From an uncultured bacterium (GTDB taxonomy: Bacteria; Patescibacteriota; Microgenomatia; UBA1400; PJMF01), in the NCBI GenBank assembly GCA_903891335.1, contig CAITDX010000044.1:1-33098 (forward strand): DNA of 33,098 bases, in the 5' to 3' direction. Made by a program: the position numbers and the translations under genes. The notes under the pieces were generated by a model, which had not been told where the DNA came from, did not search any database, and worked only from the letters and a program-made list of their open reading frames with translations. The number at the start of each line of letters is the position of its first letter. Position 1 is the stretch's first letter. Of the stretch, positions 8,888-30,503 are shown piece by piece.

Positions 8888-10252
8888 ATGTCAACTGATC
8901 CATCAATTTTCAAAGCCTATGATATTCGCGGAATTTATCCAAGCCAAATGGATGACATGACGGCCTATGAAGTTGGTCTTGCATTTGCCAATCTCATTCA
9001 GAAAGAAAAAAATCGCACCGATGTCAATTTGGTTGTTGGACGTGACATGCGTTTGTCTGGTCCAAGTCTTAAGACTGAGCTCATTCGCGGCATCACTGAA
9101 GCTGGAGCCAATGTCATTGATGTTGATTTAGCCTCTACACCAACCTTTTATTTCGCAGTGGCCTACTATGGTTATGATGGGGGAGTACAAATCTCAGCTT
9201 CTCATAACCCTGGTGAATACAATGGCTTCAAGATGGTACGAGCAAGTGCAGTCCCCGTGAGTGGTGACTCAGGCATTATGGATATCAAAGCCGCAGTGGT
9301 GGAGAAAAACTTCACTAAAGCAGCTGCTCCTGGTGCTATCACTACGAAAGAAGGCGTTTTAACAGAGCTTATTCAGATTGAAACAAAGGATATTGATGTG
9401 AGTACCATCAAGCCTTTTACGATTGTTGTTGATCCCTCCAATGCGATGGGAAGTCTAGACATCGAAGCTATTTTTGCCAAATTACCATGCAAAATTATCA
9501 AAATGAATTGGGAGTTAGACGGCAGCTTCCCCAATCACGAGGCTGATCCACTCAAAGAAGAAAATCTTGATCAATTGCGTGAACGCGTTGTACATGAAAA
9601 AGCAGATTTTGGCATCAGTCCAGATGGCGATGCTGATCGTGTTTTCTTTGTCGATGGCAATGGTAAAACATTTTCACAAGCACTGCTGCGCGGCATCATG
9701 GCGCAAATTGCAGTCAAAGAAAACCCTGGTGCGACCATTTGTTATGACATTAGACCAGGCAAAATTACTCGAGATTTAATCGATGAAGTTGGTGGCAAGG
9801 CCTCAGTTACCAAGGTTGGTCACTCACTCATTAAAGAGCAAATGATTAGAGAAAACGCCGTTTTTGGAGGAGAATCTTCTGGTCACTACTTCTATCAATT
9901 CCCTTACGGTACTTTTGAGGCACCTGCAGTGTTGATTTTGAAATTCTTGCAATTCCTATCCACAGGTGGCATGACGCTGGCAGAGTTAGCTGCCAAGTAT
10001 GATCGCTATGTCCACTCTGGAGAGATCAACTCTAAGGTTGCAGATAAGGATGAGAAAATCAAAGCCCTAGCAGAAAAGTATCAGGATGCAGAAATATCAT
10101 ATCTAGATGGCATCACCGTTACCTATCCCACCTGGTGGTTCAATGTCAGAGGTTCCAACACTGAACCAGCTCTTCGCCTCAATTTGGAGGCGGTAGATGC
10201 AGCCACTATGCAAGAGAAGCGAGATGAAGTGCTCGCGTTGATTCGCAGCTAA
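8888..10252 (+). CDS. manB: Phosphomannomutase/phosphoglucomutase
   Basis: FKAYDIRGIYP, VGRDMRLSG, ISASHNPGEYNGFKM, SPDGDADRVFFVD, GGESSGHYF; SD AAAGGAGG upstream. Confidence 0.95.
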   Translation: MSTDPSIFKAYDIRGIYPSQMDDMTAYEVGLAFANLIQKEKNRTDVNLVVGRDMRLSGPSLKTELIRGITEAGANVIDVDLASTPTFYFAVAYYGYDGGVQISASHNPGEYNGFKMVRASAVPVSGDSGIMDIKAAVVEKNFTKAAAPGAITTKEGVLTELIQIETKDIDVSTIKPFTIVVDPSNAMGSLDIEAIFAKLPCKIIKMNWELDGSFPNHEADPLKEENLDQLRERVVHEKADFGISPDGDADRVFFVDGNGKTFSQALLRGIMAQIAVKENPGATICYDIRPGKITRDLIDEVGGKASVTKVGHSLIKEQMIRENAVFGGESSGHYFYQFPYGTFEAPAVLILKFLQFLSTGGMTLAELAAKYDRYVHSGEINSKVADKDEKIKALAEKYQDAEISYLDGITVTYPTWWFNVRGSNTEPALRLNLEAVDAATMQEKRDEVLALIRS

Positions 10253-10282: not shown

Positions 10283-11371
10283 ATGTCTTTGACTGCAATT
10301 TTGGAGAGTCGCGAACTGATTAAAGAAATTGATCCTGATGGTGCACTTGCCTCGGCAGAGAGCATTGCTGATCAGGTCAAACAAGTCTGGGAAGAGCAAG
10401 AGAGCATTCAAATTGAAGGCTACAAAGACAAACCCATTTCGCAAGTAGTTGTGGCCGGCATGGGTGGATCAGCCCTTGGTGCAGACTTAGTGAAACATCT
10501 CTATCGAGATCAACTCACCGTCCCCATGGAAATTGTCAAAGACTATGATTTACCAGCCTTCGTCGGTCCAGAAACCCTGGTGATTCTGAGCAGCTATTCA
10601 GGTAACACTGAGGAGACCTTAGCTGCGGCAGCCACTGCTAAAGAAAGGGGAGCACTGATTGCGGTATTGGCTGCTGGCGGCAAACTTGCCGAGCTCGCCA
10701 AAGCCAAAAACTACCCAAGCTACCTCATCAATCCCAAGGCGAATCCTTCCAACCAACCGCGCATGGCCACTGCCTACAACATCACTGCTATGTTGCTCAT
10801 GCTGAGCAAGCTTGAACTGCTTAGTTTCAGTGAAGAGGACTATCATCAAGTCTTGGATGCCATCAATCAAACCATGGAGCGCTGTCTCGTCGAAGTACCT
10901 CAGGACAAAAATCAAGCCAAACTCCTAGCCTACATGCTACTTGAGCGACGACCCATCTTGGTTGGAGCCAGTTTCCTAGAGGGAGCACTCCACATCGCTG
11001 CCAATCAATTCAATGAAAATGCCAAGAGCTTCGCTGATTACAAGATCATTCCTGAGATCAATCATCACCTGATGGAAGGACTAACTTTTCCCAAGAGTAA
11101 TGGCCTTAACCATTTCTTCGTCTTCTTCCAATCTAAGCTCTATCGAGAAGCCATTCAAAAACGCATTACTCTGACCCAACAAGCAGTTAATCAGGCAGGT
11201 ATTGAGAGCTTCGAAGTTACTCTTGAGTCAGAAAACAAACTAATGCAAGTTTTTGAGCTAGTGACACTGAGTACTTTCACCAACTTATATCTAGCATACT
11301 TAGAAAAAACCAACCCCTGTCCAATTCCAGTAGTCGACTGGTTTAAACATGAACTAGAAAAGTTGGCATAG
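10283..11371 (+). CDS. Bifunctional phosphoglucose/phosphomannose isomerase (SIS domain)
   Basis: VVAGMGGSALGADLV, LVILSSYSGNTEETLAAA, C-terminal PGI/PMI-like region. Confidence 0.88.
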   Translation: MSLTAILESRELIKEIDPDGALASAESIADQVKQVWEEQESIQIEGYKDKPISQVVVAGMGGSALGADLVKHLYRDQLTVPMEIVKDYDLPAFVGPETLVILSSYSGNTEETLAAAATAKERGALIAVLAAGGKLAELAKAKNYPSYLINPKANPSNQPRMATAYNITAMLLMLSKLELLSFSEEDYHQVLDAINQTMERCLVEVPQDKNQAKLLAYMLLERRPILVGASFLEGALHIAANQFNENAKSFADYKIIPEINHHLMEGLTFPKSNGLNHFFVFFQSKLYREAIQKRITLTQQAVNQAGIESFEVTLESENKLMQVFELVTLSTFTNLYLAYLEKTNPCPIPVVDWFKHELEKLA

Positions 11372-11394: not shown

Positions 11395-12654
11395 ATGGCT
11401 TTGATTTACGCCTTGCAAGCCCGCGAGATTTTGGATGGTCGAGGATGGCCAACCATTGAACTCGTGCTGTGGCTTGATAACGGTTTTTCCGTGATCACTA
11501 GCGTTCCTACTGCTGTTAGTGGTGGTGATTATGATGCGGTCGAGCTGCGTGACAATGACAAACGCATGGGGGGATTGGGGGTCCAAAAAGCTATCGACAA
11601 CATCAATCAAATCATTGCCCCTCAACTTATCGGCAAAGATGTCCTCAAACAGCGCGATATCGATCACCTCCTGATTAAACTTGATGGTACCAGCCAAAAA
11701 AGCAAGCTCGGTGGCAATGCCATCCTGGCAGTTTCTCAAGCAGTCCTCAAGGCTGGCGCACTCAGTGTCGGCTTACCACTGTACCAGTACATCCAGAAAA
11801 AATATCGTCTCACCACTGATCTCACCATGCCCAGTTGCATTTTTACTATTCTCGATGGGGGTGTGCATGGTGGCAAAAACTTGGATTTTCGCGAATTTTT
11901 ACTGCTGCCCGCTAGTCACTTTTCTCTAGAGAAAGCCATTGAAATGGCTGTCGTAGTCAAACAAAAACTCGAAGATTTGCTGATCAGTAAAGGAGCCATT
12001 CACTCGATTGGTGTCACTGGTGGTTTTAGCCCCAATCTGTACAAAAATACCGATGCATTTGAGCTGATCATCGAAGTAATTCGCCAAACTGGCTATAACT
12101 TCGCTCAAGACTTATTTTTTGGCCTCAATGCTGCTGCCTACGATATTTACGAAGCAGGCAAATATCGCGTCCGGGACAATAGTCAAGGCATGAGCACTAC
12201 TGAATTGATTACTTTTTATAAAAAATTGCGCGAAAGCTATAAACTCATCTATCTAGAAGATGCTTTCGCCAAAAACGAAGCTACGGCCTGGCAAGAGTTG
12301 AGCAGAGAAATTGGTCGAACTACAACTATTGCTGGATGCAACAATGTTTCTTCTAAATCATCACTAATTCAAAAAGGCCTGCAAAACCAAGAGTTTAATG
12401 CAGTGGTCGTCAAGCCCAAACACCTGGGGACAATTAGTGAAACCATGGAAAGTATTAAGCTGGTCAAAGATTCTAAACTTGATCTCATCCTTTCCCACAG
12501 CAGTGGCGAAACGAATGAAACGCTGATTGCTGACCTGGCAGTAGCCGTAGGAGCTAACTACGTCAAATTTGGTCCGCTCAATCGTGGTGAACGCATCAGT
12601 AAATACAACCGCCTCTTAGAAATTTCTCGAGAGCTGAGTCAAGCCATCAATTAA
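11395..12654 (+). CDS. Enolase paralogue, predicted catalytically inactive
   Basis: Full-length enolase homology (ALQAREILDGRGWPTIEL, KLGGNAILAVSQAV, SHSSGETNE, RGERISKYNRLLEI) but substitutions at acid/base and metal-ligand positions; see findings. Confidence 0.88.
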   Translation: MALIYALQAREILDGRGWPTIELVLWLDNGFSVITSVPTAVSGGDYDAVELRDNDKRMGGLGVQKAIDNINQIIAPQLIGKDVLKQRDIDHLLIKLDGTSQKSKLGGNAILAVSQAVLKAGALSVGLPLYQYIQKKYRLTTDLTMPSCIFTILDGGVHGGKNLDFREFLLLPASHFSLEKAIEMAVVVKQKLEDLLISKGAIHSIGVTGGFSPNLYKNTDAFELIIEVIRQTGYNFAQDLFFGLNAAAYDIYEAGKYRVRDNSQGMSTTELITFYKKLRESYKLIYLEDAFAKNEATAWQELSREIGRTTTIAGCNNVSSKSSLIQKGLQNQEFNAVVVKPKHLGTISETMESIKLVKDSKLDLILSHSSGETNETLIADLAVAVGANYVKFGPLNRGERISKYNRLLEISRELSQAIN

Positions 12655-12789
12655 ATCCCTAGGTTTTTCCAATTTCCCGTAAATTACCCGTTGACCTTTG
12701 CCTTTTTTTCGTTTATTTTATGGTTAATCTTCGTTATAGTTAATCACCGCTTCATGCCTTCAACTTGGCTTGAAGCAGAAAGCAACCCT

Positions 12790-13410
12790 ATGGCAGTTAC
12801 CCTCTACAAGCGCCAGCGCCAAATTGTGGACTACATCGCTCAATATGTCCAAAAGAATGGGTATTCTCCCACCCTCAAGGAAATTGCCGACTCGATCAAT
12901 GTGTCTTCTCTAGCTACTGTCCATGAGCATCTCCAAGCGCTCGAACGCAAGAAAGTAATCCGCAAACATGAAGGAGCAGTGCGTGGTATCGAGCTGGTTG
13001 ACCGCACCTTTATCAATATCACCGACAGTGTGGATTTGCCATTTTTAGGCTTCATCGCAGCTGGCTCACCAATTGAACCACATCAAGATCCCAATGCTAG
13101 TTTCAAGGTTTCTCCAGAGATGATTACTGGCAAGAAGCGCGCCTATGTCCTACAAGTGCGTGGTAAATCTATGATTGAGGATCACATCGATGATGGTGAC
13201 TATGTCGTCATCGAAGAAACTCCAGAGGTGAGTAATGGCGACATCGTCGTCGCACTCCTCGACAATGGCCTGGCCACTCTCAAACGTTTCTATAAAGAAG
13301 TGACTCGCATTCGCCTCGAACCAGCCAACTCCAGCATGAGTCCAATCTATGCCACCAATGTCCAGATCCAGGGTAGAGTGGTGGGACTGATTCGGAAGTT
13401 TCGATATTGA
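12790..13410 (+). CDS. lexA: LexA repressor
   Basis: LYKRQRQIVDYIAQYVQKNGYSPTLKEIADSINVSSLATVHEHL, Ala-Gly cleavage site FIAAGSPIEP, catalytic GKSMIEDHIDDGD and LATLKRFY. Track start at TTG 12691 unlikely. Confidence 0.93.
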   Translation: MAVTLYKRQRQIVDYIAQYVQKNGYSPTLKEIADSINVSSLATVHEHLQALERKKVIRKHEGAVRGIELVDRTFINITDSVDLPFLGFIAAGSPIEPHQDPNASFKVSPEMITGKKRAYVLQVRGKSMIEDHIDDGDYVVIEETPEVSNGDIVVALLDNGLATLKRFYKEVTRIRLEPANSSMSPIYATNVQIQGRVVGLIRKFRY

Positions 13411-29762: not shown

Positions 29763-30503
29763 CTACTTCTTCTTCGTCTGATTCTTGATACTTTCAATCA
29801 CGCGCTGCACTTCCTCATCGGGAGCCAAGTAGTAGTGACGAATCGGTCGAGCCTGATCATCAAATTCGTAGACCAGTGGAATGCAGTAGGGCACGGTCAA
29901 ATCGACCACCGCTTCATCAGAAAGATTATCAAGATATTTGATAATCGAACGCAGGGAATTATGATGACCTGAGAGAATGATTTGCTTGCCTTGCTTGATC
30001 AATGGCTCAATTTCAGCTTGCCAATAGGGCACACTACGCGCATAAGTATCCTTAAGACACTCTGTCGAAGGCAAAAGGGCCGGATCGATATCTTTGTACT
30101 TAGGATCGTGACTGGGGTGACCAGGATCAGTGATGTCGAGTGTTGGTGGTGGCACATCATAGCTGCGACGCCACAGCGCCACTTGCTCCGCACCGTGTTT
30201 CTCGACGGTTTCTGGTTTATTGAGTCCCTGCAGTGCGCCATAGTGGCGCTCATTGAGCTTCCAACTGTTGACGATGGGAATATACATTTGCTCAGTTGCA
30301 TCAAGCACTGTCCAGAGCGTGCGAATCGCCCGCTTCAGATAAGAAGTAAAGGCAATATCAAAGGTAAAGCCAGCCTCTTTGAGCTTCAAACCATACTGAT
30401 AGGTTTCCTTGATGCCTTCTGGAGTGACATCAATGTCAATCCAACCAGTGAAGCGATCGCTCCAGATAGAGGTACCATGGCGAATAATGACGACTTTAGT
30501 CAT
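29763..30503 (-). CDS. gpmA: 2,3-bisphosphoglycerate-dependent phosphoglycerate mutase
   Basis: VVIIRHGTSIWSDRFTGWIDIDVTPEG, WKLNERHYGALQGLNK, LSGHHNSLRSIIKYL. Confidence 0.93.
   Translation of the reverse strand: MTKVVIIRHGTSIWSDRFTGWIDIDVTPEGIKETYQYGLKLKEAGFTFDIAFTSYLKRAIRTLWTVLDATEQMYIPIVNSWKLNERHYGALQGLNKPETVEKHGAEQVALWRRSYDVPPPTLDITDPGHPSHDPKYKDIDPALLPSTECLKDTYARSVPYWQAEIEPLIKQGKQIILSGHHNSLRSIIKYLDNLSDEAVVDLTVPYCIPLVYEFDDQARPIRHYYLAPDEEVQRVIESIKNQTKKK

Follow-up and report, generated by a model that had tools for sequence, protein, structure and literature searches.

The window analyzed here, the whole 33,098-nucleotide stretch of bacterial DNA, carries two genes of the enolase family, and one of them (ENOA) lacks catalytic residues that the other (ENOB) retains. 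The question raised by this locus is whether ENOA is still an enzyme and, if it is not, why the gene is kept. The features that bear on the answer are as follows. Replaced residues are given in yeast numbering, and the codes for genomes (G), loci (L), genera (g), and families (f) used below are working labels.

8888..10252, plus strand: PMM/PGM (Pfam), the operon neighbor upstream of ENOA; synteny identifies the locus, and the copy is xenologous
10283..11371, plus strand: bacterial PGI/PMI (Pfam), ending 23 nt ahead of ENOA
11395..12654, plus strand: ENOA, predicted pseudo-enolase of 419 amino acids, with an ATG start and an intact open reading frame
12013..12018, plus strand: V207-T208 of ENOA, replacing D210-E211, where E211 is the general acid
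12127..12129, plus strand: N245 of ENOA, replacing the metal ligand D246
12337..12342, plus strand: C315-N316 of ENOA, replacing the metal ligand D320 and D321
12412..12414, plus strand: K340 of ENOA, the catalytic base position (K345), kept
12499..12501, plus strand: S369 of ENOA, replacing the phosphate-binding R374
12790..13410, plus strand: lexA, conserved downstream neighbor of ENOA, from the in-frame ATG at 12790 (the reading frame opens at 12691)
29763..30503, minus strand: histidine-phosphatase family gene (His_Phos_1), overlapping ENOB; the same adjacency is found in L091-L093
30503..31771, minus strand: ENOB, enolase with catalytic residues retained

Family models place ENOA among the enolases. 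The protein scores 392.5 bits against the TIGR01060 enolase profile (cut-off 300) and contains the Pfam domains Enolase_N and Enolase_C; its score against the enolase-related model NF006223 (PRK08350) is 75.2 bits, below the cut-off of 624. When ENOA is aligned to two enolases of solved structure, 1iyx and 3tqp, almost no gaps fall within the catalytic stretches. The general-acid motif VGDEGG reads IGVTGG, with T208 in place of E211 and V207 in place of the preceding Asp. The motif GDDL reads GCNN, N245 occupies the column of D246, and R374 is replaced by S369. Among the metal ligands D246, E295, and D320, ENOA retains E295 alone (as E288). Also retained are H158, E167, K340, H368, and K391, which correspond to yeast H159, E168, K345, H373, and K396. 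A sequence-only reading of the window had proposed each of these substitutions (the altered acid motif, Asn at D246, GCNN, and Arg to Ser) together with a preserved base Lys, GGxH, LED Glu, and C-terminal Lys. Both sets hold in this alignment, where acidic ligands are indeed missing at the columns it had singled out. Compared with canonical enolase (EC 4.2.1.11; TIGR01060), ENOA has the common fold, domain order, base lysine, E295, H159, and K396, but it lacks the general acid, two metal ligands, and R374. This pattern, in which catalytic residues are gone while homology and fold are retained, is that of a pseudoenzyme, and it suggests that ENOA is without activity.

The fold of ENOA is predicted to be intact. 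An AlphaFold2 model built from a 30-sequence alignment has a pLDDT of 90.9 and a pTM of 0.91, shows the two-domain enolase architecture, and matches solved enolases in the PDB with TM-scores of about 0.91-0.95. The least certain part of the model comprises residues ∼201-220, which include the altered general-acid loop.

ENOA and ENOB are 36% identical and are the only enolases in the whole genome to which the window belongs (843 kb, 98% complete). ENOB retains E211, D246, E295, D320, K345, H373, R374, and K396. The earlier statement that this second gene keeps the residues missing from ENOA is correct for the catalytic set, but the gene lies on the minus strand and its motif contexts, VGNEGA and SHRGGGE, are not textbook ones. 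The histidine-phosphatase family gene that overlaps ENOB is likely to encode a cofactor-dependent phosphoglycerate mutase.

The altered enolase is not peculiar to this genome. Among 47 sampled genomes representing 23 genera of the window's family, ENOA is present in 45 and in every genus, and was not found in G005 (84% complete) and G064. A second enolase with a complete catalytic set occurs in 46 of the 47, and both genes occur together in 44. The nearest relatives of the window's ENOA, within the genus, are 74%-83% identical. Glu is present at the E211 position in none of the 50 family ENOA sequences, in 18 of 19 outgroup ENOA sequences, and in all 40 ENOB sequences; the residue is kept in ENOA of nearly all sampled outgroup families. 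In the family, the position is occupied by V, T, L, N, D, G, Q, I, or C, and in most members E211 is the sole first-shell residue lost. The window's genus (g1) and its sister genus g4 have additionally lost D246, D320, and R374, and the Thr, Cys, and Ser that replace E211, D320, and R374, respectively, are the same in 11/11 sequences. We conclude that the pattern is not due to chance or assembly error, because the metal-site losses are found in all 11 sequences of two genera, the loss of E211 in 50/50, and because CP011212.1 is a complete, one-contig genome whose matching genome (G002) carries both ENOA and ENOB.

The metal-site losses appear to have followed the loss of the general acid. Among the 94 columns with ≥90% conservation in other ENOA sequences, the window's clade departs completely at only five, three of which are D246, D320, and R374 (hypergeometric P = 0.002, a value that is indicative only because the sequences share ancestry). 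At the same time, K340, E288, H158, H368, and K391 are invariant across this clade, and some function of the pocket may therefore survive there.

One genome, G006, might be mistaken for one that has only a dead enolase, and we make no such claim for it. Its iPGM gene is truncated by the edge of the contig carrying ENOA (C8), and in some of its genus-mates ENOB adjoins iPGM, so the gap at ENOB is likely to be an assembly edge.

The origin of the two genes was examined with a tree of 139 enolase sequences. All ENOA sequences of the family form a single clade (SH-aLRT 100) nested among intact members of the order, and the closest sequences, from families f8 and f13, both have E211. In outgroup families the gene order is PMM, PGI, PEP synthase, ENOA, iPGM, and lexA frequently lies nearby. 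In the window's family it is holA, PMM, PGI, ENOA, lexA, cobO, pyrG, rplS, yraN, with PEP synthase and iPGM optional. Tree and synteny together indicate that ENOA is the resident, vertically inherited enolase of this Microgenomates/Pacebacteria order. The sequence-only reading had described ENOA as an enolase paralogue in a sugar-phosphate gene run. A second enolase does exist, but on the tree ENOA is ancestral in situ and not a duplicate of ENOB. Likewise, the PMM/PGM and PGI/PMI genes do precede ENOA, but the run is better described as a remnant of an ancestral PMM-PGI-PEP synthase-enolase-iPGM cluster.

The history of ENOB is different. Family ENOB sequences fall into at least five separate, unrelated clades, and even within genus g1 the ENOB type of G002 and G003 differs from that of G000, G001, G004, G005, and G007. 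As judged from the tree, the catalytic enolase has been exchanged repeatedly, even within a genus, and the predicted non-catalytic ENOA has not. The PMM/PGM gene of the window is a separate case: it shares only ∼30% identity with its positional counterparts in genus-mates, which are 83%-91% identical to each other, and is a replacement in place.

The PEP synthase gene next to ENOA has also changed. In most outgroups of the order, an intact PEP synthase precedes ENOA and carries the motifs GGQTSHA (phosphohistidine), VRSS (ATP site), and CGQ (cysteine). All three are missing from the PEP synthase beside ENOA in the family, which persists as an open reading frame of ∼500-770 codons predicted to keep the PEP-synthase domains. 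Examples of these degenerate genes are L105:4161-5990, L110:3988-5961, and L123:3796-5982, among others. A match to this gene is found in 14 of the 23 genera and is absent from about nine, among them the window's genus, where the gene has been lost; a few weak or distal matches may be true PEP synthases. Few genes in the family match the phosphohistidine domain well. Pyruvate kinase, in turn, is encoded in nearly all family genomes and is missing from many outgroups, and in several genomes it lies close to the second enolase on the same contig. This distribution suggests that a PEP-synthase arrangement gave way to a pyruvate-kinase arrangement and that both original enzymes, PEP synthase and enolase, then lost catalysis. 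The iPGM that adjoins ENOA retains its metal-binding motifs. In many of these iPGM genes (L105:7257-9038, L128:7294-8937, and others) Thr is found at the catalytic Ser position (GNTETGH).

In a PEP-synthase tree the family copies form one clade, and long branches make the placements of f2 and f7 uncertain. PEP synthase is degenerate in f2 as well, where ENOA retains E211 but has lost H373 (SNR, SCR), and an independent start of the same inactivation process is possible there. In f7 (L060:2648-4909, L063:816-3017), a degenerate PEP synthase adjoins a canonical enolase of the ENOB type, which would fit a substitution of ENOA at its own locus. We also asked whether ENOA has eroded further where the degenerate PEP synthase was lost. 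An uncorrected comparison gives p = 0.0007, but independent tree pairs (two on supported branches, five when all branches are used) provide no support, and we claim no such link.

We judge it probable that ENOA is a pseudo-enolase that has been relieved of catalysis and is kept for a non-catalytic role, likely one of binding or scaffolding. Under this explanation, the ancestor of the order would have had one enolase, located in the PMM-PGI-PEP synthase-enolase-iPGM cluster. In the family ancestor, catalysis would have been handed to an acquired second enolase paired with pyruvate kinase; the general acid would have disappeared from the resident enolase, and the phosphohistidine, ATP, and cysteine motifs from the PEP synthase next to it. 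ENOA would then have been retained for a task that needs the fold and not catalysis, and the metal and phosphate site would have been dismantled next in the two genera of the window's clade. The proposal made from the window alone, that this enolase is catalytically dead, has kept its fold, and has been repurposed, agrees with the clade-wide fixation of the substitutions, the low dN/dS described below, the intact predicted fold, and the presence of a complete ENOB.

A scaffold role seems to us the most likely one. ENOA might act as a binding or scaffold protein in the way that moonlighting enolase does in the RNA degradosome of Escherichia coli. In that complex enolase binds RNase E (5ohg), and a non-catalytic role for this fold is well established. 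Degradosome enolases are active enzymes, unlike ENOA, which is predicted to be inactive. A more extended version of the proposal, namely that enolase and PEP synthase were jointly stripped of catalysis in the family ancestor and kept as a pseudoenzyme pair that shares a structural or regulatory task, with the ancillary function of ENOA needed apart from glycolysis, is tentative and somewhat doubtful.

Most other family members lack only E211 among the first-shell residues, so a new reaction or ligand binding is possible for them. ENOA could be a new enzyme that applies the proton-abstraction chemistry of the enolase superfamily to another substrate. Carboxyphosphonoenolpyruvate synthase, an enolase homolog with new chemistry, is not counted in favor of this reading. 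Most genera retain the metal site and the base lysine, and their general acid has become a small or hydrophobic residue. Among 21 sampled ENOA proteins that accompany a degenerate PEP synthase, 17 keep every first-shell residue but E211, and changes near the site such as D321 to Ser and T40 to Val or Ile are shared. However, the window's clade has lost D246, D320, and R374, and other genera have lost differing sets of first-shell residues: S39, H159, E168, D320, and H373 in g6; S39, H159, and H373 in g7 and g9; and various residues in g3, g5, and g8. The protein persists in all of them. A new enzymatic activity is therefore an unlikely explanation for the family as a whole.

Equally improbable is that ENOA serves as a sensor, binding PEP or 2-phosphoglycerate without turnover and regulating the neighboring sugar-phosphate enzymes or transcription. 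The D241A, E163A, E204A, and K335A mutants of Mycobacterium tuberculosis enolase are non-functional, and the crystal structure of E204A, which corresponds to E211, still holds PEP (7e4f; PMC10619443). Basal ENOA proteins resemble natural E211 mutants, and by this precedent they should be non-catalytic and could bind PEP; the clustering of ENOA with PGI and PMM also fits a regulatory role. The first step in ENOA evolution thus parallels E204A, but unlike the engineered mutant ENOA is natural, and in the window it also lacks metal and phosphate ligands. Since two metal ligands and R374 are gone, ENOA of the window's clade is not expected to convert 2-phosphoglycerate or to bind Mg-PEP normally, which argues against such a sensor there.

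Enolases form dimers and octamers, and the co-occurrence of ENOA and ENOB in 44 genomes could reflect a hetero-oligomer in which ENOA is a non-catalytic subunit. An obligate partner should resist exchange, and the polyphyly of ENOB, with its replacement inside g1, makes this arrangement very unlikely.

The stepwise loss of catalytic residues, and the loss of the adjoining PEP synthase from about nine genera, would also be expected if ENOA were a relic decaying toward loss. This reading can be tested against selection, which was estimated as pairwise Nei-Gojobori dN/dS between relatives wherever dS was computable. ENOA values are mostly 0.037-0.070, with 0.11 for one pair that has a long low-complexity tail, and those of comparison genes are 0.05-0.17 (PGI), 0.03-0.08 (PMM), and 0.04-0.09 (ENOB); all are rough figures because dS exceeds 1 for most pairs. 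The constraint on ENOA equals that on its working neighbor enzymes. Long-term retention under purifying selection, another hallmark of pseudoenzymes, is thus evident. No interrupted copy of ENOA was seen in the sample, complete replacement in the window's clade spares 89 of the 94 conserved columns, and the gene is found in nearly all relatives, so recent decay is rejected and a relic is highly implausible. Finally, continued enolase catalysis by the substituted residues, for which the TIGR01060 score and the retained base Lys might be cited, can be dismissed almost with certainty given the missing general acid and two metal ligands, the non-functional equivalent single mutants of the M. tuberculosis enzyme (PMC10619443), and a complete ENOB in the same genome.

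The closest parallel to ENOA, a counterpart in kind and not a member of the same group, is an archaeal in-situ enolase paralog. Thermococci and Methanococci have two enolases per genome: the in-situ copy is fast-evolving and, according to the proposal, no longer serves glycolysis and retains only an ancillary role, whereas glycolysis stayed with the relocated copy, which gave up the ancestral context (PMC4390880). Our synteny and tree reveal the same division, with the altered enolase in the ancestral context and a second enolase elsewhere. The archaeal paralog lies in a ribosomal superoperon, whereas ENOA is surrounded by holA, PMM, PGI, lexA, cobO, and pyrG. Moreover, ENOA is bacterial, its active counterpart has been repeatedly exchanged, and a PEP synthase was inactivated alongside it. 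In the part of its text drawn on here, a glycolysis survey covering the Candidate Phyla Radiation describes enolase as patchy and laterally transferred and mentions no inactive copy (PMC7304191). In the literature searched, which included few subscription journals, no report of a bacterial pseudo-enolase, a Pacebacteria enolase, or a Patescibacteria pseudoenzyme was found.

Because enolase also performs glycolysis, it is difficult to establish whether its moonlighting functions are themselves selected. Here evolution appears to have separated the two roles: The catalytic enolase is replaceable and often exchanged, and the dead enolase is kept almost everywhere. This suggests a second, non-catalytic job for enolase that can be studied on its own in these bacteria. 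The series from intact protein to loss of the acid, and then to loss of the metal site and other later erosions, is a natural mutational path along which the requirement for the enolase fold can be probed. Since family models call ENOA an enolase, metabolic reconstructions of these bacteria will probably assign it to glycolysis.

Two further observations concern enolases elsewhere in the order and family. In family f9, the single enolase of G053 (L030:1453-2784) has Gly at the E211 position and no enolase was found in G042; lower glycolysis may be on its way out in f9. C-terminal tails rich in Pro, Ala, and Thr, the longest of 247 residues, extend many family ENOA proteins (L033, L041, L042, L049, L019, L022) but are absent from the window's genus, and the long-tailed proteins of L033, L041, L042, and L049 have in common a short AQxxIDxTLxEIG-like motif near the end.
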